Assembly: GCA_030590185.1 (NCBI GenBank) | Contig: JAUUZB010000293.1 | Coordinates: forward strand, 1 to 6,075 | Reading direction: 5' to 3' | Source of the DNA: Deltaproteobacteria bacterium | GTDB taxonomy: Bacteria > Myxococcota > XYA12-FULL-58-9 > JAUUZB01 | Length of the DNA stretch: 6,075 nt | Shown here: piece after piece, positions 1 to 6,075 of the stretch | Layout of the letters: each line of letters starts with the position of its first letter | Position numbering within the stretch: the first letter of the stretch is position 1 | Made by a program: the position numbers and the translations under genes | Notes under the pieces: model-generated | Databases searched by the model: none | What the model was told of the DNA's origin: nothing | What the model saw: only the letters and a program-made list of their open reading frames with translations

Positions 1-107
1 CCGTCGAGCTCCACCAAGATCCGCACCGTCCCGTGCATGGCCGGGTGGGAGGGACCCATGTTGATTTCGACGTTCTTAGTGGGGAGGTCGTGGGCTATGT
101 CGGCCAT
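1..107 (-). CDS. nuoD: NADH-quinone oxidoreductase subunit D, N-terminal fragment
   Basis: The first 35 codons of nuoD run off the left edge of the window. NuoD is the 49-kDa-type subunit of the complex I Q module. With NuoB it forms the quinone-reducing site at the cytoplasmic side of the membrane. The reverse strand from ATG at 105-107 reads MADIAHDLPT followed by KNVEINMGPSHPAMHGTVRI, and the MGPSHPAMHGTVRI stretch is the family hallmark (N-x-GP-x-HP-x-x-HG) that contributes to the quinone pocket. A purine-rich stretch GAGGAAGG lies about 10 bases upstream of the ATG (118-125), which is slightly far but acceptable. The gene would normally follow nuoC directly. Here nuoC lies about 2.65 kb away, so this copy probably has its own promoter in the divergent region 108-246. 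Identity is secure from the motif despite the short length; whether the rest is intact cannot be seen. Confidence 0.9.
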   Translation of the reverse strand, partial: MADIAHDLPTKNVEINMGPSHPAMHGTVRILVELD

Positions 108-149
108 CGAGTTGCTGCCTTCCTCCGGGATGTCTCGCCCTCTGCGGGG

Positions 150-178
150 TTGCTAGCCCCACCCGGTCTTCGAGTCAA
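150..178 (-). promoter_or_regulatory. candidate sigma70-type promoter for nuoD
   Basis: On the minus strand a TTGACT hexamer (173-178) matches five of six bases of the -35 consensus. It is followed after exactly 17 bases by TAGCAA (150-155), a weaker -10. Transcription would start near 143, giving a leader of roughly 35 bases before the nuoD ATG at 107. The position is what is needed if nuoD has been cut off from nuoABC. The -10 match is poor and GC-rich genomes give chance hits, so this is a suggestion only. Confidence 0.35.
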
Positions 179-190
179 CTGCCCATACCG

Positions 191-220
191 TTGCCCTGGC
201 GCCCGATTCCCCGCTATAGG
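191..220 (+). promoter_or_regulatory. candidate promoter for the redoxin-PhnD gene
   Basis: TTGCCC at 191-196 and TATAGG at 215-220 are separated by 18 bases. TATAGG shares the first four bases of the -10 consensus and is the most AT-rich hexamer in this intergenic region. Transcription would begin around 226-228, with the GGAG ribosome site at 235-238 and the ATG at 247. The whole gap 108-246 is 139 bp and divergent, so it must hold any promoters for both flanking genes. No operator-like palindrome stands out apart from a short GGGG/CCCC inverted pair at 146-160. Confidence 0.4.
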
Positions 221-246
221 GCCGCAAACTGCACGGAGAAGACACG

Positions 247-1602
247 ATGCCACTCGCGCTACTCCTCGTCCTCGCCACCCAGATGTCCAGCGGCGGATCC
301 GACGACCTGCTGCTCAAGATCGGGGACCGCGCACCGCCCTTTTCGATGCGTGACCTCGACCGTCAGGTCTTCTCCCTGGCCCACCACACGGGCCCCTCGG
401 CCACCGAACCCAAGAAGGCGGTCTTCATCGTCTTTTTCGCCACCTGGTGCGAGCCCTGCAAAAAAGAGATCCCCATCGTCAAGCGGGTCCACGCCCGTTG
501 GGCGGCCAAGGGTGTCGAGGTGATCTACATTGGTCTCTCCCAAGGCCCCAAGGAGCTCAAGCCCTTCGCCGCCCAGGCCAACATGCCCTGGCGCGTGGTC
601 CCGGACTCCTTTGGCCTGCTCTCTCGGCGGTACGGCGCGGCGCAGCTCCCCCACGTCTTGCTGATCAACAGCGCCGGTAACATCGCTTTCCAACACCGGG
701 GCATCGCGCCGGATCTCCAACGCACCATCGAGGAGGCGATCTCCAAGGCCACCGGCATCGCGGTCCCGCCAGGACTCGACGAGGGGGGCGCCGCCGCCGT
801 GGCTCAGACCTACGAAAAAAAGCTGATCCTCGGCCGGGCGCCCTCGGGGGACGGCTCCACCGATCGCTGGCAGCCCCTGGGCATCTACCTGCGGGACATG
901 GTCAAGGCGGAGATCGATCTGGCGAGCGAGCCCTCCTATGCCCAGTTCGAGAAGGCGCTCAAGGCCGGCAAATACGACATCGCCAACGCCGGGCCGCTGG
1001 TCTGCAACGAGGTCAAGAAGGTCTACGAGCCGCTGGTCACCCTCGAGCGTCAGGGCACGCCGACCTACCTCGGGCTGATCTTCGCCATGCGTGCCAGCCG
1101 GCTCAAGAAGCTCGGCGATCTCAAAGGCAAGACGGTCGGCCTGGTCTCGCCCAAGTCGACCTCCGGCGGCCTCTACCCCCAACAGGCGCTGCTCAAGGCC
1201 GGGCTGATCCCGGGCAAGAACGTCACCATCAAGTGGTTGGGTAGCCACTCCAAGGTAGCGGCGGCGGTCAAGGACGGCATCGTCGATGCGGGCGGCTGTT
1301 ACGAGGATTGCCGCGATGCCGTGTGGAGCAACCAGCGTGGCAAGGCGATCGCGACCGTGGTGCTCGATTATACCGAGGAGATCCCAGCGGAGATGATCAT
1401 CGTCCGGCGCGGCCTCGACGCCAAGACCAAGGCTGATCTGCGCAAGGCGTTGCTCGGGCTCAATGAGAACACCGGCATCATGACGCAGATCTCCCGCGGC
1501 GAGCTCCCCTTGACCGCCGTGGCCGAGGCCAGCGACGCCGACCTCGCGCCGGTGGCCAAGGCGATCAAGTACGTCGCCTCGAAGACCAAAAAGAAAAAGT
1601 AG
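247..1602 (+). CDS. thioredoxin-like (TlpA/redoxin) domain fused to a PhnD-like substrate-binding domain
   Basis: The 451-residue protein has two clear domains. Residues about 20-170 form a TlpA/redoxin-type thioredoxin fold: IGDRAPPFSMRDLDRQ opening, FFATWCEPCKKEIP with the CxxC pair Cys68/Cys71, and a cis-proline motif QLPH at Pro135. Residues about 185-445 resemble the periplasmic phosphonate-binding family of PhnD: DIANAGP (244-250), DLKGKTVGLVSPKSTSGG (291-308), GSHSKVAAAVKDGIVDAGG (332-350). A short hydrophobic N-terminus (LALLLVLA) suggests export, but it lacks the usual positive n-region, so the signal is weak. The start is fixed by GGAG eight bases upstream and an in-frame stop at 217-219. 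The binding half has three cysteines (253, 351, 355) and the C-terminus is lysine-rich. No ABC permease or ATPase gene is visible, so uptake of phosphonate is not supported. A redox-linked ligand sensor or a thiol-disulfide partner is an inference. The gene sits between nuoC and nuoD on the opposite strand. Domain calls are firm; the role is unknown. Confidence 0.88.
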   Translation: MPLALLLVLATQMSSGGSDDLLLKIGDRAPPFSMRDLDRQVFSLAHHTGPSATEPKKAVFIVFFATWCEPCKKEIPIVKRVHARWAAKGVEVIYIGLSQGPKELKPFAAQANMPWRVVPDSFGLLSRRYGAAQLPHVLLINSAGNIAFQHRGIAPDLQRTIEEAISKATGIAVPPGLDEGGAAAVAQTYEKKLILGRAPSGDGSTDRWQPLGIYLRDMVKAEIDLASEPSYAQFEKALKAGKYDIANAGPLVCNEVKKVYEPLVTLERQGTPTYLGLIFAMRASRLKKLGDLKGKTVGLVSPKSTSGGLYPQQALLKAGLIPGKNVTIKWLGSHSKVAAAVKDGIVDAGGCYEDCRDAVWSNQRGKAIATVVLDYTEEIPAEMIIVRRGLDAKTKADLRKALLGLNENTGIMTQISRGELPLTAVAEASDADLAPVAKAIKYVASKTKKKK

Positions 1603-1606
1603 GTCT

Positions 1607-2596
1607 CTACTCGCAGGCGAGGGTATCGAGCTCGCAGGCCGTGGTGCAGGCTAGGGTGCCGCTGTCAAAGCCGAGGTCCGTGCAGGTGGCGTCGCCGAGG
1701 TCGTCGCTGTCGCACTCTTCGTCCCCTTCGCGGCGGCTGTTGCCGCACAACTGGCAGGCGGTGGCATCGAACCGGCAGGTGGCCTCGGCGCAGCCCAGGG
1801 TACCGCTGTCGAAACCGAGGCTCTCGCAGGTCTCGCCCGCGAGGTAGGTGTTCTCGCAGTCCTCGGCCCCGGCGATGACGCCATCGCCGCAGGTGATCAG
1901 CCCGCCGAGGCAACTGGTGAGATCGAGGGTGCAATAGAGTCCGCAACCGAGGATGCCGCCGGTGTAGCCGAGGCCGAGGTCGGCGCACTCGACGCCGCCG
2001 AGGTCGAGGCCGTCACATGGCTCGGCGCCGTCGATCTGGTCGTTGCCGCACACCGGGCCGGTGCCGGTGCATTCGGAGAGGTCGAATTCGCACGCCCCCG
2101 GTTCCCCCGGCAGGCCACAGGCCAGGGTCCCGTCGTCAAAGCCGGCGGTAGCGCAGTCCCAGCCGCCGAGGTCGGAGGGCTCGCAGGACTCGGCGCCATC
2201 GATGATGCCGTTGCCGCATTCCGGCCGAACCTCGCAGCCGCCGGTGTCAAAGGTGCAAGCCGCGGTGCAGGCGAGGGTGCCGCCCGGGTGTCCGAGGTCC
2301 CAGCAGTCGAAGCCGCGCAGGGCGGTCGTGTCACACTGTTCGCCCGGGTCGAGGGCGTCGTTGCCGCAGACCAGGGCCACGCCGCCGGTTCCGCCGGCTC
2401 CGCCCATGCCGCCGGTTCCGCCGGTCCCGCCCATGCCGCCGGTGCCCGTACCCCCCGTGCCGCCCAATCCTCCGGCGCCGGACCCTCCGGCCCCGCTTCC
2501 GCCCGTACCACCTGAGCCCCCGGTGCCCGTGGCATCCGGCGTCGGCCAGGTCCCAATCCCGCACCCAGGCGCGAGCCCGATCGCCAGAACGGCCAT
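1607..2596 (-). CDS. cysteine-rich putative lipoprotein with Gly/Thr linker and five six-cysteine repeats
   Basis: From the ATG at 2594-2596 the gene encodes 329 residues. The start MAVLAIGLAPGC looks like the end of a lipoprotein signal with Cys12 as the possible acylated residue. Then come a Gly/Thr/Ser/Ala linker (about 22-73) and five modules of about 45 residues (Cys77-121, 127-176, 183-229, 236-281, 284-328). Each module begins CGN or CGD, continues like GAE-x-CD, and holds six cysteines. These resemble the myxobacterial cysteine-rich repeats found in surface proteins; disulfide-bonded modules outside the cytoplasm are expected. The chosen ATG has no ribosome site in front of it, and the hydrophobic reading frame continues upstream to an amber codon at 2633-2635. 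The usual start is therefore probably at 2641 and disrupted (see separate entry). The gene follows nuoC by about 160 bp on the same strand and converges with the redoxin-PhnD gene, leaving only four bases between stops. Ligand and function are unknown. Confidence 0.8.
   Translation of the reverse strand: MAVLAIGLAPGCGIGTWPTPDATGTGGSGGTGGSGAGGSGAGGLGGTGGTGTGGMGGTGGTGGMGGAGGTGGVALVCGNDALDPGEQCDTTALRGFDCWDLGHPGGTLACTAACTFDTGGCEVRPECGNGIIDGAESCEPSDLGGWDCATAGFDDGTLACGLPGEPGACEFDLSECTGTGPVCGNDQIDGAEPCDGLDLGGVECADLGLGYTGGILGCGLYCTLDLTSCLGGLITCGDGVIAGAEDCENTYLAGETCESLGFDSGTLGCAEATCRFDATACQLCGNSRREGDEECDSDDLGDATCTDLGFDSGTLACTTACELDTLACE
1613..2368 (-). repeat. five tandem six-cysteine protein modules
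   Basis: The five modules occupy 2234-2368, 2069-2218, 1910-2050, 1754-1891 and 1613-1747. Cysteine spacing is nearly invariant: C-x10-C-x9-C-x11-C-x3-C-x6-C in modules 1 and 5. Module 4 has x4 in place of x3, module 3 has x13 in place of x11, and module 2 has x8 in place of x3. Other shared positions are CGN/CGD at the start, an acidic residue before the second cysteine, DLGG-like before the third, and GTL before the fourth. The pattern predicts three disulfides per module. The modules have diverged at the DNA level, so this is an old duplication. Confidence 0.85.
2378..2533 (-). repeat. Gly-rich linker tract of GGT/GGC-type codons
   Basis: This stretch encodes about 52 residues made almost only of Gly, Thr, Ser, Ala and a few Met and Leu, with GTGG, GTGGMGG and GSGAGG units. 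On the plus strand it appears as imperfect iterations of the ccgccggt/tccgccggt type, densest at 2383-2450. It links the lipid-anchored N-terminus to the first cysteine module, as a flexible spacer that lifts the modules off the membrane. Tracts of this kind vary in length by slippage, so copy number may differ between strains. Confidence 0.8.
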
Positions 2597-2641
2597 GATG
2601 GCCGCGATGAACGGTCCGAGGTTGGCGTTGCGCTACAGCAT
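2597..2641 (-). other. probable original start of the lipoprotein gene, interrupted by an in-frame TAG at codon 3
   Basis: On the minus strand ATG (2639-2641), CTG and TAG (2633-2635) are followed in the same frame by codons for RNANLGPFIAAI, running directly into MAVLAIGLAPGC. Without the TAG this gives a textbook lipoprotein signal: Met-Leu-x, an Arg, a 15-20 residue hydrophobic core and a Gly-Cys end. A purine-rich ribosome site GGAAGAG (2648-2654) sits six bases before this ATG, while the downstream ATG at 2596 has none. A single C-to-T change of CAG would create the TAG. A sequencing or assembly error, a true nonsense mutation, or suppression remain possible. Confidence 0.55.
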
Positions 2642-2647
2642 GGCAGA

Positions 2648-2654
2648 CTCTTCC
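2648..2654 (-). promoter_or_regulatory. ribosome binding site in front of ATG 2641
   Basis: GGAAGAG on the minus strand lies six bases from ATG 2639-2641. It supports that ATG, and not the one at 2596, as the site where the lipoprotein gene was meant to be translated, which makes the TAG two codons later significant. Confidence 0.45.
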
Positions 2655-2678
2655 AACTCAAAAGAGAGCAAGAACCGG

Positions 2679-2707
2679 ACCATCGCAAGTGGCTGGAATC
2701 AGGTCAA
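2679..2707 (-). promoter_or_regulatory. weak candidate promoter for the lipoprotein gene
   Basis: TTGACC (2702-2707) and GATGGT (2679-2684) on the minus strand are 17 bases apart. The -35 is good and the -10 matches only three of six. It lies between nuoC and the lipoprotein start, so transcription would begin about 30 bases before ATG 2641. Read-through from nuoC is the alternative. Confidence 0.25.
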
Positions 2708-2712
2708 ATCAG

Positions 2713-2747
2713 TGTCTCGTTCCAGAGACAGGGCCGCCTCCGGCGCC
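2713..2747 (-). terminator. pair of short hairpins after nuoC
   Basis: Two inverted repeats follow the nuoC stop. 2732-2738 and 2742-2747 pair as a GC stem with a TCC loop and one bulge. 2713-2718 (TGTCTC) and 2725-2730 (GAGACA) pair perfectly over six bases with a six-base loop. Neither is followed by a T-run on the minus strand, so neither is a classical intrinsic terminator. They may slow or end the nuoABC transcript or protect its 3' end; this is uncertain. Confidence 0.2.
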
Positions 2748-2757
2748 AAGACTCGCG

Positions 2758-3294
2758 CTAGGGCTCGTTCAGCTTCTCGACCGGCGCGTGGCGTTGAGTC
2801 GGCTCGGCCGTGACCTCCCGCAGCTCGACCAGGGGCTGACGCCGGTCGATGGGGTAGTCCTTGCGCAGCGGGTGACCCTCGAATTCCTCGTAGAGCAGCA
2901 CCCGGGCGAGGTTGGGATGACCGGCGAACCGGATGCCGTACATGTCCCAACATTCGCGCTCGTGCCAGTTCATGCCCGGCCAGACCGGCGTTAGGGATGG
3001 GCAGGTCGGATCTTCGACCGCCACGTGCACCTTGAGCCGCACCCGGTGTCGGCGGGCGACGGAGTAGAGGTGGTAGATGACGTCGAAGCGCGGCTCGCGT
3101 TTCTCGTACCAGTCGACGCCGGTGCAGTCGATCGGCATGTCGAGCTCGAGCTCGGGGTCGTCCCGCAGGAAGGTGGCGATCTCGACCAGCCTGTCGGTGG
3201 CGACCACGGCGGTTTCATTGCCGTGCTCGGCGTGGGTCTCGAGGATAGCGTCGCCAAACTTGCGACGCAGGCGGTTCAGTACGACCTCAGCCAT
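2758..3294 (-). CDS. nuoC: NADH-quinone oxidoreductase subunit C
   Basis: This 178-residue protein is the 30-kDa-type subunit of complex I, part of the Q module on the cytoplasmic face. It holds no cofactor and supports the NuoB/NuoD interface. The signature is near the C-terminus: HERECWDMYGIRFAGHP (111-127) and EEFEGHPLRKDYP (136-148), both classic for the family. Length is in the normal range for an unfused NuoC. ATG 3292-3294 is chosen because GAGG lies five bases upstream (3300-3303). A TTG at 3307-3309, directly after the nuoB stop, would add five residues but has no better ribosome site. The gap to nuoB is 15 bases, so the two are co-transcribed. The next gene on the strand is not nuoD, as would be expected, but a cysteine-rich lipoprotein gene. 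Confidence 0.95.
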   Translation of the reverse strand: MAEVVLNRLRRKFGDAILETHAEHGNETAVVATDRLVEIATFLRDDPELELDMPIDCTGVDWYEKREPRFDVIYHLYSVARRHRVRLKVHVAVEDPTCPSLTPVWPGMNWHERECWDMYGIRFAGHPNLARVLLYEEFEGHPLRKDYPIDRRQPLVELREVTAEPTQRHAPVEKLNEP

Positions 3295-3299
3295 CTTCG

Positions 3300-3303
3300 C
3301 CTC
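3300..3303 (-). promoter_or_regulatory. ribosome binding site deciding the nuoC start
   Basis: GAGG on the minus strand, five bases from ATG 3292-3294. It favours this ATG over the TTG five codons earlier. Confidence 0.6.
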
Positions 3304-3309
3304 AACCAA

Positions 3310-3837
<528 letters not shown>

Positions 3838-3840
3838 GAC

Positions 3841-4278
3841 TCACTCCGCTGCCTGCTCGCGCTCGAGCTGGGTGACCTGCTTGGGGCCCCACTCGAGGGC
3901 GCCCTTGCGCCAAGCGTAGATCAGGCCGACCAGGATGATCGCCACGAAGACCACCATCTCGACCACGGCGAGTTGGGCGCTCACCGCCGGCTGCTTTCCC
4001 TTGGCGGCGTCGCTGAAGGTTACGGCCCAGGGGTAGATGAACACTGCTTCGATGTCGAAGATCAGAAACAGAATCGCGACCATGAAGAACCGCGCGTTGA
4101 ACGGCTGACGCGCACTGCCGGAGCTCGGGTTGCCGCACTCGAAGGCTTCGTTCTTGATGGGGTTTGGGTTCCTCGGGCCGAGGAAGCGCGAGGCGACCAG
4201 GATGAAGATACCGACGCCGACCGCGATGACCGCGGCGATCAGCAGGGGTAAGTGCAACTCCAACTGCGAGTCCGACAT
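3841..4278 (-). CDS. nuoA: NADH-quinone oxidoreductase subunit A
   Basis: This 145-residue integral membrane protein matches ND3/NuoA, which sits at the junction of the membrane and peripheral arms of complex I. Three membrane helices are visible at about 9-31, 64-86 and 104-123. The conserved loop after the first helix contains KNEAFECGNPSSGSARQPF (42-60), with Cys48 equivalent to the loop cysteine near the quinone site. The second helix holds FDIEAVFIYPWA with Asp75 and Glu77. Length is usual for the family. No strong ribosome site precedes ATG 4276-4278; the 43-base gap to the upstream gene carries GC inverted repeats instead. It heads the nuoABC cluster, which could be read from a promoter of its own or from the upstream propeller gene. 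Confidence 0.96.
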   Translation of the reverse strand: MSDSQLELHLPLLIAAVIAVGVGIFILVASRFLGPRNPNPIKNEAFECGNPSSGSARQPFNARFFMVAILFLIFDIEAVFIYPWAVTFSDAAKGKQPAVSAQLAVVEMVVFVAIILVGLIYAWRKGALEWGPKQVTQLEREQAAE

Positions 4279-4285
4279 AGGACGT

Positions 4286-4317
4286 GGGGTACCCCTAAGC
4301 GGTTGTTGGGGTCAAGG
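4286..4317 (-). promoter_or_regulatory. inverted repeats and possible -35 in the short gap before nuoA
   Basis: The 43 bases between the propeller gene and nuoA hold a perfect 10-base palindrome ggggtacccc (4286-4295). An ACCCC/GGGGT pair (4308-4312 with 4291-4295) could form a five-base stem with a 12-base loop. A TTGACC hexamer (4312-4317, minus strand) looks like a -35, but nothing 16-18 bases on resembles a -10. The structure could act on nuoA translation, which has no clear ribosome site. This is speculative. Confidence 0.25.
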
Positions 4318-4321
4318 GGGC

Positions 4322-5332
4322 TCATTCGACCGCAATATGAATGAGGGGGCCGTCCCCAGTGGCCCAGATCTCTGTGAACGTACCCGTGTAGGTGATGGCG
4401 ATGGTTTGGAACATTGCGTATCCGAAGCCGTCGCCACCGCACCGTTCCATCATGCTCACCCAATTGTCATCTCGTTTGAGAACCGGGGTGGCGTTGTCAT
4501 CGAACATGACGATGTCTTCCCCAAGATCCGCGGCGAACCACTTCCGGCCCGCGTCGTCGATGGCCATCGCAGAAAAGTCGTTGGCCAACCGCGAGTCGTG
4601 GAGGCCGAATGCGATCCAGGTGTCGTTGTCCTTTTCGCCCGGAGTATCGCCGTCGTCTAGGAAGGACAGGTGGCTGTCGCTCACGAACCACTTGTTCCCA
4701 TCGGCGTCGATGGCGATGTCATCAACGGGTGTTGCCACCAGACCGTCGCGCTCCTCAAAATTCGTACATGGACCGTCCCACACGTGGGTGGGTGTGACGC
4801 CGACGTCGAGGAATAGCGCTCCATTCCAGGTTCCGACCCAGACACCACCGGCGGGCTCAAAAGCAATGCTCATCACGCCTCGCCCGGCCAAGGCACCTTC
4901 ACAGGTGAATTGGGCTAGGTGATCATCGGATCCATCGGTCGGCGTACCACTGTCATCGAGACGAAACACGCCACAACTCATGCCGATCCAAATACTCCCG
5001 TCAGGCGCCAGAACGATGTGTGTCGCCGAGTCCGCTTCTCCCGTGCATCCGACGGTGCGGACCAAGGCAATTACATCGTCAGTTCTGTCGGCCGGTGTGC
5101 CCCCGTGGTCGAGGAAGTACAACTCCCTGCCCGCAATGAACCAAAGCCCGCCGTCGTTGCCCGCGGCGATGTCGATGATCGGCCCATAGGGCACGCCATC
5201 CTCCGCTGAAAAGCTGACCGCCACGTCATCGGTAGCATCGGCCGGTGTCCCGTTGTCGTCGAGGTACGAGAGGGAGTGCCAATGTGAGAACCACTTTCCC
5301 CCATCGCTGTCGATCACGATCTTCTCCGCGCC
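4322..5332 (-). repeat. propeller blade repeats of about 50 residues
   Basis: The motif L/F-D-D-x-G-T-P followed by acidic residues recurs at residues 164, 214, 265, 315, 365 and 417, that is every 50-52 residues. Each is preceded by a strand ending in WF or WI/WV. Blade 4 has lost most of its acidic residues (LDVGVTPTHVWDG). A short seventh blade (about 448-476) lacks the motif and ends the protein, so the ring probably closes with strand exchange. Confidence 0.75.
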
Positions 5333-5752
5333 ATCGAAGCCGTCGAGAACCGCGCACGTACAGCCCTGGAGCGATGGAAGGAGATCGTCACAGTCCTCCT
5401 CGACACACGCGCCGTCGTTATCCGCGTCGAAGCAAGTGTCACAGCCGTCAGGTATGCCGTCTTGGTCGCCATCGATGCGATCGTCGAAGTCTGGACAGAG
5501 GTCCTCGGCGTCGCAGATCCCGTCCTCGTCCGAATCGCCGCTGTCGTTGTCGCCAAGGCAGAGGTCACAGCCCGAGGCGATACCGTCGTCGTCCGGGTCG
5601 AGGTTGTCATCGTGGCCTGGGCATAGGTCTTCGGCATCGCAGACCTCATCCCCGTCAGCATCAGGGCAATTGCAGGCCGGCAACGAGGGTGCGACCGAGA
5701 GCGCCAAGATCGTGAGCGCGCAGCGGTGAGAGAACGCCAGCGACGGGATCAC
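4322..5752 (-). CDS. secreted protein with TSP3-like calcium repeats and a seven-blade propeller
   Basis: From the GTG at 5750-5752 the gene encodes 476 residues. A signal peptide covers about 1-26 (MIPSLAFSHRCALTILALSV then APSLPA), with Cys27 either lipidated (L-P-A-C, an imperfect lipobox) or next to a signal peptidase I cut. Residues 30-131 are Asp- and Cys-rich units of the DxDxDGxxDxxDxCP type, as in thrombospondin type 3 repeats, which bind calcium. Residues about 141-476 hold repeating strands such as IAIDADGNKWF and the motif LDDxGTPxDxTDD, giving about seven blades like the two-component-regulator propeller family. The GTG is preferred to a longer frame starting at 5923: it overlaps the upstream stop as GTGA, has GGGGG about eight bases upstream, and begins a signal peptide. 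Translation is probably coupled to the upstream cysteine-rich gene. nuoA follows 43 bases later. There is no kinase domain, so signalling is not implied; ligand binding at the surface is a guess. Confidence 0.82.
   Translation of the reverse strand: MIPSLAFSHRCALTILALSVAPSLPACNCPDADGDEVCDAEDLCPGHDDNLDPDDDGIASGCDLCLGDNDSGDSDEDGICDAEDLCPDFDDRIDGDQDGIPDGCDTCFDADNDGACVEEDCDDLLPSLQGCTCAVLDGFDGAEKIVIDSDGGKWFSHWHSLSYLDDNGTPADATDDVAVSFSAEDGVPYGPIIDIAAGNDGGLWFIAGRELYFLDHGGTPADRTDDVIALVRTVGCTGEADSATHIVLAPDGSIWIGMSCGVFRLDDSGTPTDGSDDHLAQFTCEGALAGRGVMSIAFEPAGGVWVGTWNGALFLDVGVTPTHVWDGPCTNFEERDGLVATPVDDIAIDADGNKWFVSDSHLSFLDDGDTPGEKDNDTWIAFGLHDSRLANDFSAMAIDDAGRKWFAADLGEDIVMFDDNATPVLKRDDNWVSMMERCGGDGFGYAMFQTIAITYTGTFTEIWATGDGPLIHIAVE
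5360..5665 (-). repeat. TSP3-like Asp-rich calcium-binding units
   Basis: Three imperfect units (residues about 30-62, 69-104 and 109-131 of the protein) share D-x-D-x-DG, then D-x-x-D-x-CP, with Asp at alternate positions and cysteines that can link neighbouring units. DAEDLCP occurs twice (39-45 and 81-87). The third unit is shorter and degenerate. Confidence 0.8.
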
Positions 5753-6075
5753 GGTGAGCCCCCATGACGTCGGAAGCGTGGGGGTTGGCGGCGACCTCTC
5801 GTCGAGGCGAGAGCGAGCAACGCGGCGATCCCCATCAAGAATACGACCCGCGGCAGACCGGCGCAGCCCATCTGTCCAGATTCGGAGGTACAGACTAGGC
5901 AGGGGTCTGCGCCCGCTTCGCAATAATCTTCGTCCCCATCGCGGCAGGCCCAGTCCTCTTGCGCGGCGGCATTGCCACAGCGGTCGCCGCGTTCACGATC
6001 CACGCAGAGGGCCCGAAGGTCCGAGATGCACGCCAGGCACGGCGAGTCCCCGGCGGGGCAAACGTCGGTGAATGC
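5749..6075 (-). CDS. C-terminal part of a cysteine-rich protein with a membrane-anchor tail (5' end outside the window)
   Basis: The frame is open from the right edge to TGA 5749-5751, giving 108 residues. It is rich in cysteine and has two matching units: CPAGDSPCLACISDLRALC and CEAGADPCLVCTSESGQMGC, each C-x6-C-x2-C then x7 or x8 to the next C. After the last cysteine comes AGLPRVVFLMGIAALLALAS, a single membrane helix, then TRGRRQPPRFRRHGGSP. A Cys, a hydrophobic helix and an arginine cluster at the end resemble the MYXO-CTERM type of C-terminal sorting signal, but this tail runs about 12 residues past the first arginines, which is longer than usual. A GTG at 6001-6003 could start a short protein of 84 residues, but the cysteine unit lies upstream of it, so the gene most likely begins outside the window. 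It overlaps the next gene by four bases and is probably in one operon with it. Confidence 0.7.
   Translation of the reverse strand, partial: AFTDVCPAGDSPCLACISDLRALCVDRERGDRCGNAAAQEDWACRDGDEDYCEAGADPCLVCTSESGQMGCAGLPRVVFLMGIAALLALASTRGRRQPPRFRRHGGSP

Follow-up and report, generated by a model that had tools for sequence, protein, structure and literature searches.

We analysed a window of 6,075 nt (the whole stretch of DNA considered in the present study) from contig JAUUZB010000293.1 of a Deltaproteobacteria bacterium, with coordinates given 5′ to 3′ on the forward strand and the complex I (nuo) genes lying on the minus strand. In this window nuoABC (4278–2758) is separated from the nuoD start (107) by 2,650 bp containing two other genes, and we consider it highly probable that this arrangement reflects operon fission at the nuoC|nuoD boundary, i.e. 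an ordinary splitting of the cluster in which nuoD would have its own sigma-70-type promoter.

Interruption of the nuo cluster between nuoC and nuoD

The open reading frames (ORFs) of the window and their family matches confirm the original prediction that the nuo operon is interrupted between nuoC and nuoD, both on the same strand, and the measured separation agrees with the approx. 2.65 kb that had been proposed. The gene for complex I subunit A, nuoA (3841–4278; PF00507, E 7.9e-36), is followed by nuoB (3310–3837; PF01058, and NCBIfam PRK14817 with 279.4 bits against a cut-off of 271) and nuoC (2758–3309; PF00329, E 3.9e-47), all on the minus strand. The 5′ end of nuoD (1–107, minus strand) starts with the ATG at 107 and contributes 35 residues before the gene exits the left edge of the window. 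The called frames agree with codon-position GC (guanine plus cytosine) content. By tblastn, the NuoC protein displays 54–70% identity with the NuoC proteins of six relatives (genomes G001, G002, G003, G192, G193 and G195), and the 35 NuoD residues are 77 and 80% identical with NuoD from G001 and G195 respectively.

The gap is occupied by a Cys-rich, Gly-rich lipoprotein-like gene (1607–2596, minus strand), for which only a sub-threshold match to DUF4215 was obtained, and by a gene encoding a redoxin–PhnD fusion (247–1602, plus strand; PF00578 and PF12974). The Cys-rich gene is spaced 161 bp from nuoC and lies tail to tail with redoxin–PhnD, with 4 bp between them, and the starts of redoxin–PhnD and nuoD are divergent and 139 bp apart. 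As had been claimed, redoxin–PhnD is opposite in strand to nuo; it is the only one of the two gap genes that is antisense, as the Cys-rich gene shares the nuo strand. Both are putatively of the envelope type, on the basis of their domains and the look of their N-termini. Upstream of the Cys-rich ATG (2596) there is, by eye, an in-frame ATG two codons ahead of a TAG (2633–2641), and the apparent signal peptide of this protein is short when it is started at ATG 2596.

Gene order in related genomes

The same break was found in relatives from a phylum set of 195 genomes, centred on the genome of locus L001 (G001). In G001 (L001/L124), nuoABC is followed after 36 bp by opposite-strand genes and then by nuoDGHI, all on one contig; the gap encodes redoxin–PhnD, a lipoprotein-like ORF, a PEGA/FecR protein, a sigma-factor-like ORF and one further ORF (the lipoprotein-like and sigma-factor-like labels were given by eye). 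In G195 (L121), nuoABC is followed after 6 bp by opposite-strand genes for a polyprenyl/phytoene synthase fusion, redoxin–PhnD and a MopE/NHL protein, and then by nuoD and nuoG up to the contig end. G193 has nuoABC, a 2.7 kb gap and nuoDGHI; the ORFs scanned in this gap gave no Pfam match, and two of them, on the opposite strand, look secreted by eye, in frames that codon-position GC leaves not clearly settled. In G002, redoxin–PhnD is tail to tail with nuoABC (4 bp) and nuoDG is found on a separate contig next to a divergent Na/Ca exchanger, and in G003 nuoABC and nuoDGHI lie in the interior of two different contigs, with redoxin–PhnD on a third. In G003, the gene placed head to head with nuoD (L126:7629–8699) encodes a plain PhnD-family binding protein, which shares 27% identity with the PhnD part of the fusion. 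Contiguous nuo genes, as operon fission demands of some relatives, are present in G192, which carries an unbroken nuoABCDGHI in which C and D are 26 bp apart, and from A to I in G016, G017, G167 and G170; in G168 and G171 they run from A to G at contig ends.

Comparison of nuo order in relatives thus reveals a split that is shared (on one contig in G001, G195 and G193), but with a gap content that varies. The Cys-rich gene remained unmatched by tblastn in those loci of relatives that we examined (L001–L003 and L121–L146), and redoxin–PhnD was found in the junctions of relatives. Of the idea of a kept insertion, the retention therefore stands, as the break persists in relatives, whereas the clean gain of two genes does not, as only redoxin–PhnD is common to those relatives. 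The expectation that nuoD runs on into nuoE was not borne out in relatives, where nuoD is followed by nuoGHI (G001) or by nuoG, at which the contig ends (G195).

G001 and G002 yielded one match each for NuoC and NuoD, with no second NuoC (E≤1e-3) or NuoD (E≤1e-30), and both halves together are the only NuoC/NuoD copy in these two genomes. Further NuoC-type matches were present in G003 and G195, indicating that some members have a second complex I or a relative of it. As for the remaining subunits, G001, G002, G003, G193 and G195 have NuoF and NuoK on one contig and three L/M/N-type subunits on another, and in G192 one contig carries F and K, with a second one carrying three L/M/N-type subunits together with a K and a further NuoC.

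Promoter-like sites and transcription units

A promoter-like site is located before nuoD at 150–178 (minus strand), consisting of TTGACT (178–173), 17 nt and TAGCAA (155–150), 42 nt before the ATG. The pattern TTGACT-N17-TA, noticed in an alignment of the relatives and counted afterwards, precedes nuoD in five of the six split genomes (the window, G001, G195, G003 and G193) and in none of five intact ones (G192, G016, G017, G170 and G171, the nuoD start of G016, G170 and G171 being taken as the edge of the match rather than as a start codon), although these counts come from related genomes and hence are not independent. The nuoD sites account for five of the six occurrences of the pattern in 286,698 strand-bases from nine loci. 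From these motifs it is very likely that nuoD has a promoter of its own, as had been suggested, and that the nuo set of the split genomes forms two transcription units with separately started transcripts. The distance from the end of the −10 block to the nuoD ATG is exactly 7 nt in G001 (L124), G195 (L121) and G003 (L126), which suggests an almost leaderless nuoD messenger; it is 42 nt in the window and in G193, and the leader in the window contains GGAGG.

Before nuoABC there is a further promoter-like site (4286–4315, minus strand; TTGACC-N18-TACCCC), separated from the nuoA ATG by 7 nt, and a looser TTG...TA pattern, chosen post hoc, is found at a like distance before nuoA in all six split genomes and not in G192. 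The promoter-like site of redoxin–PhnD (191–220, plus strand; TTGCCC-N18-TATAGG) is weak and absent from the relatives checked. A sigma-70 consensus scan of the window gave two matches, both on the plus strand within 4732–4926, and none before nuoD, because its strict second-hexamer rule excludes TAGCAA. Terminator-like sites in the window numbered six, compared with 2.8 expected, with none inside 108–2757.

Frequency of the nuoC|nuoD break

The first 150 matches listed for each of NuoC and NuoD comprised 96 genomes with both. Among the matches listed, C and D are adjacent on one strand in 77 of these 96, with 410–636 bp between profile edges, which bears out the statement that the two genes usually lie side by side. 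Three of the 19 non-adjacent genomes have C and D far apart on one contig (G001, G193 and G195), and the other 16 have no same-contig, same-strand pair among the matches listed. We examined five of these 16 and found nuoABC and nuoD on separate contigs in G002, G003, G019 and G021; G007 was rejected as a C/D-split genome, being an artefact of the listing in which both sets are contiguous. The nuoABC loci of G019 and G021 (14 and 17 kb; L132 and L134) contained no NuoD match, and these genomes are placed in a different part of the NuoABC tree, from which it seems that the nuoC|nuoD boundary opened more than once. G020 (L140) similarly has nuoABC without nuoD in the locus examined. These three genomes (G019, G020 and G021) apparently form a second group of the phylum in which this boundary was broken independently.

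The redoxin–PhnD fusion

The redoxin half of the fusion is TlpA/ResA-like, with a CxPC motif at residues 68–71, and the second half is a PhnD-type binding domain. Each half thus matches one known family, the TlpA/ResA thioredoxins or the PtxB/PhnD-type binding proteins (solved relatives 5o2j, 3gl3 and 4nmu), but, unlike those proteins, the two are fused here, and a Pfam scan found no ABC (ATP-binding cassette) permease or ATPase for PhnD/PtxB-type uptake in the window. Nor was an ABC transporter present near redoxin–PhnD in L001, L002 or L003 among the selected ORFs scanned with Pfam. A protein search returned 48 proteins of 408 to 486 amino acids with both domains, the window's own included, and in an alignment of 24 members (again including that of the window) the CxPC motif and two further cysteine residues (351 and 355) are invariant in all 24. 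A literature search for a PhnD–TlpA fusion returned no paper on it, as judged by title and the start of the abstract.

A scan of genome contigs gave 80 loci, of which L001–L003 (two labelled Myxococcota bacterium and one labelled Deltaproteobacteria bacterium) match over the full length of the fusion; for the remaining 77 the match is confined to the first 207 residues, the redoxin part, and these were left out. With at most eight candidates scored per genome, the fusion was detected at E≤1e-40 in five of the 195 phylum genomes (G001, G002, G003, G191 and G195), whereas NuoC is found in 174 and NuoD in 176. G191, which may be an incomplete genome, has two redoxin–PhnD-like matches, one of them partial, and no match to NuoC (E≤1e-15), NuoD (E≤1e-30) or NuoF (E≤1e-3); a set of adjacent matches in G191, one to PF00420 and three to PF00361, may represent antiporter genes. 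Redoxin–PhnD is directly opposite nuoD in the window only, other genes taking this place in G001 and G195.

Other features of the window

A gene for a propeller-type lipoprotein-like protein (4322–5755; PF07494 match) is on the same strand as nuoA and ends 43 bp before it. The ORF at 5749–6075 has, by eye, a terminal Cys-hydrophobic-basic tail, which we take to resemble Myxococcota sorting signals.

Order of events and alternative explanations

We constructed a Nuo tree of seven subunits for the window, which contributes NuoA, NuoB, NuoC and the 35 residues of NuoD, and for 12 genomes, four of which are without H and I. In this tree G192 groups with the split genomes with a support of 100 against the others, but support inside the group is 54–87. 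A single split clade without G192 is 4 log-likelihood units worse than the best tree and, with a p-AU of 0.157, is not rejected. The grouping ((G001,G003),G195) is common to the redoxin–PhnD and Nuo trees, which would be in line with vertical descent; the position of G191 in the redoxin–PhnD tree has a support of 43. Our tentative reading of these data is a single break with redoxin–PhnD at the junction, the gene probably having been lost later in G193 and relocated in G003, although there may have been two breaks.

Besides the relatedness of the genomes behind the motif counts, several observations weigh against this reading. The TTGACT motif is missing upstream of nuoD in G002, and the chance of the motif per 160-nt region, 0.0002 to 0.004 by first-order Markov resampling, is an after-the-fact value, because the motif was picked by viewing the alignment. 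In the best Nuo tree the window branches first and the intact G192 falls inside the group, which would imply two breaks or one re-joining. In addition, a group of redoxin–PhnD carriers without G193 is rejected (p-AU 0.0002), so that either G193 lost the gene or the gene moved. Finally, of the five genomes in which both redoxin–PhnD and nuo are seen, four (the window, G001, G002 and G195, but not G003) carry the fusion gene alongside nuoC or inside the C–D gap, which could indicate coupling.

Operon fission is still, in our view, the best explanation. The ancestral cluster would have been nuoABCDGHI, and in one Myxococcota-type clade it would have opened at the nuoC|nuoD boundary. With nuoD under its own sigma-70-type promoter, A–C and D/G/H/I would be produced from two separately started transcripts, and redoxin–PhnD would have taken its place at the 3′ end of nuoC, in tail-to-tail orientation. 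Further genes would later have accreted at the junction or replaced redoxin–PhnD, and in some lineages the nuoABC and nuoD halves would have drifted apart.

An alternative that we consider unlikely is a functional partnership, raised in the original prediction, in which redoxin–PhnD, combining thiol-redox and oxyanion-binding parts, serves the assembly or regulation of complex I, is kept at the junction for this reason and, in the window, shares a divergent control region with nuoD. Its position adjoining nuoC or between C and D in the four genomes named above, the cysteine residues invariant in all 24 members and the other PhnD-family gene that adjoins nuoD in divergent orientation in G003 would all fit such a role. 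However, G003 groups with G001 in both trees and yet has redoxin–PhnD away from nuo, the redoxin–PhnD-like genes of G191 occur without NuoC, NuoD or NuoF matches, and the five carriers are few beside the genomes with NuoC or NuoD, so that the co-occurrence with complex I expected of an accessory or assembly gene was not seen across the 195 genomes. Moreover, the gene faces nuoD directly in the window only, and the nuoD motif is present without a nearby redoxin–PhnD in G003 and G193. From G003, G191 and the distribution over five genomes, the position of redoxin–PhnD beside nuo is best read as inherited, and both it and the Cys-rich protein would be neighbours of complex I rather than partners. 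A more elaborate proposal, which we regard as quite improbable, is that the junction is a kept control point, with nuoABC and nuoDGHI started separately (several clade members using near-leaderless promoters) and a periplasmic thiol-redox/oxyanion-sensing fusion tying D/G/H/I production or assembly to the redox or phosphorus state of the envelope.

Insertion of a mobile or horizontally acquired two-gene cassette at the C|D boundary appears very improbable. The Cys-rich gene is unmatched in the relatives' loci and its stretch has the highest GC content in the window, as might be expected of such a cassette, but this high GC content may merely follow Gly-rich coding, and there is no tRNA, Rfam match or inverted repeat of at least 14 nt in 1–2900. 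Redoxin–PhnD must in any case be old, because G001 and G195 carry it in their junctions as well, with 57–60% identity. It is hardly credible that the arrangement arose by mis-joining during assembly or that complex I has decayed here to a remnant. Although the further NuoC-type matches in G003 and G195 might suggest a remnant, the nuoA, nuoB and nuoC frames are intact and a second NuoC or NuoD was not found in G001 and G002; a mis-join between 107 and 2757, which had been named as a possible source of error, is contradicted by the same order on single contigs of the G001 and G195 assemblies.

Comparison with known complex I gene clusters

NuoC and NuoD are fused in some bacteria, and NCBIfam contains C/D and B/C/D models. 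The cyanobacterial genes ndhC, ndhK, ndhJ and ndhH presumably correspond to nuoA, nuoB, nuoC and nuoD respectively. In Anaeromyxobacter, Myxococcus and Stigmatella the nuo genes are found, as printed in the lines of PMC2330069 that describe them, in the clusters nuoEFJKLMN and nuoIHGDBA. The situation here resembles this description in that the complex I genes are split over clusters and A, B, D, G, H and I form a block without E and F, which is whole in G192 as nuoABCDGHI; unlike in that description, this block is here interrupted in its turn at the C|D boundary. The cyanobacterial NDH-1 genes, for which the relevant part of PMC6337551 gives ndhCKJ as separate from ndhH, have the same break point, with A–B–C together and D elsewhere. 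However, that account concerns another lineage, and ndhH is apart from ndhAIGE there, whereas nuoD heads nuoGHI here. In the excerpted text of PMC3457125, the ndhCKJ operon is named in the reference list only.

Gene neighbourhood alone provides limited ground for inferring a partner of complex I, as the case of redoxin–PhnD illustrates. A lineage in which C and D are probably on separate transcripts, together with an intact relative, would offer a natural case in which to study the breaking of operons and to ask whether complex I assembly depends on its subunits being produced jointly.

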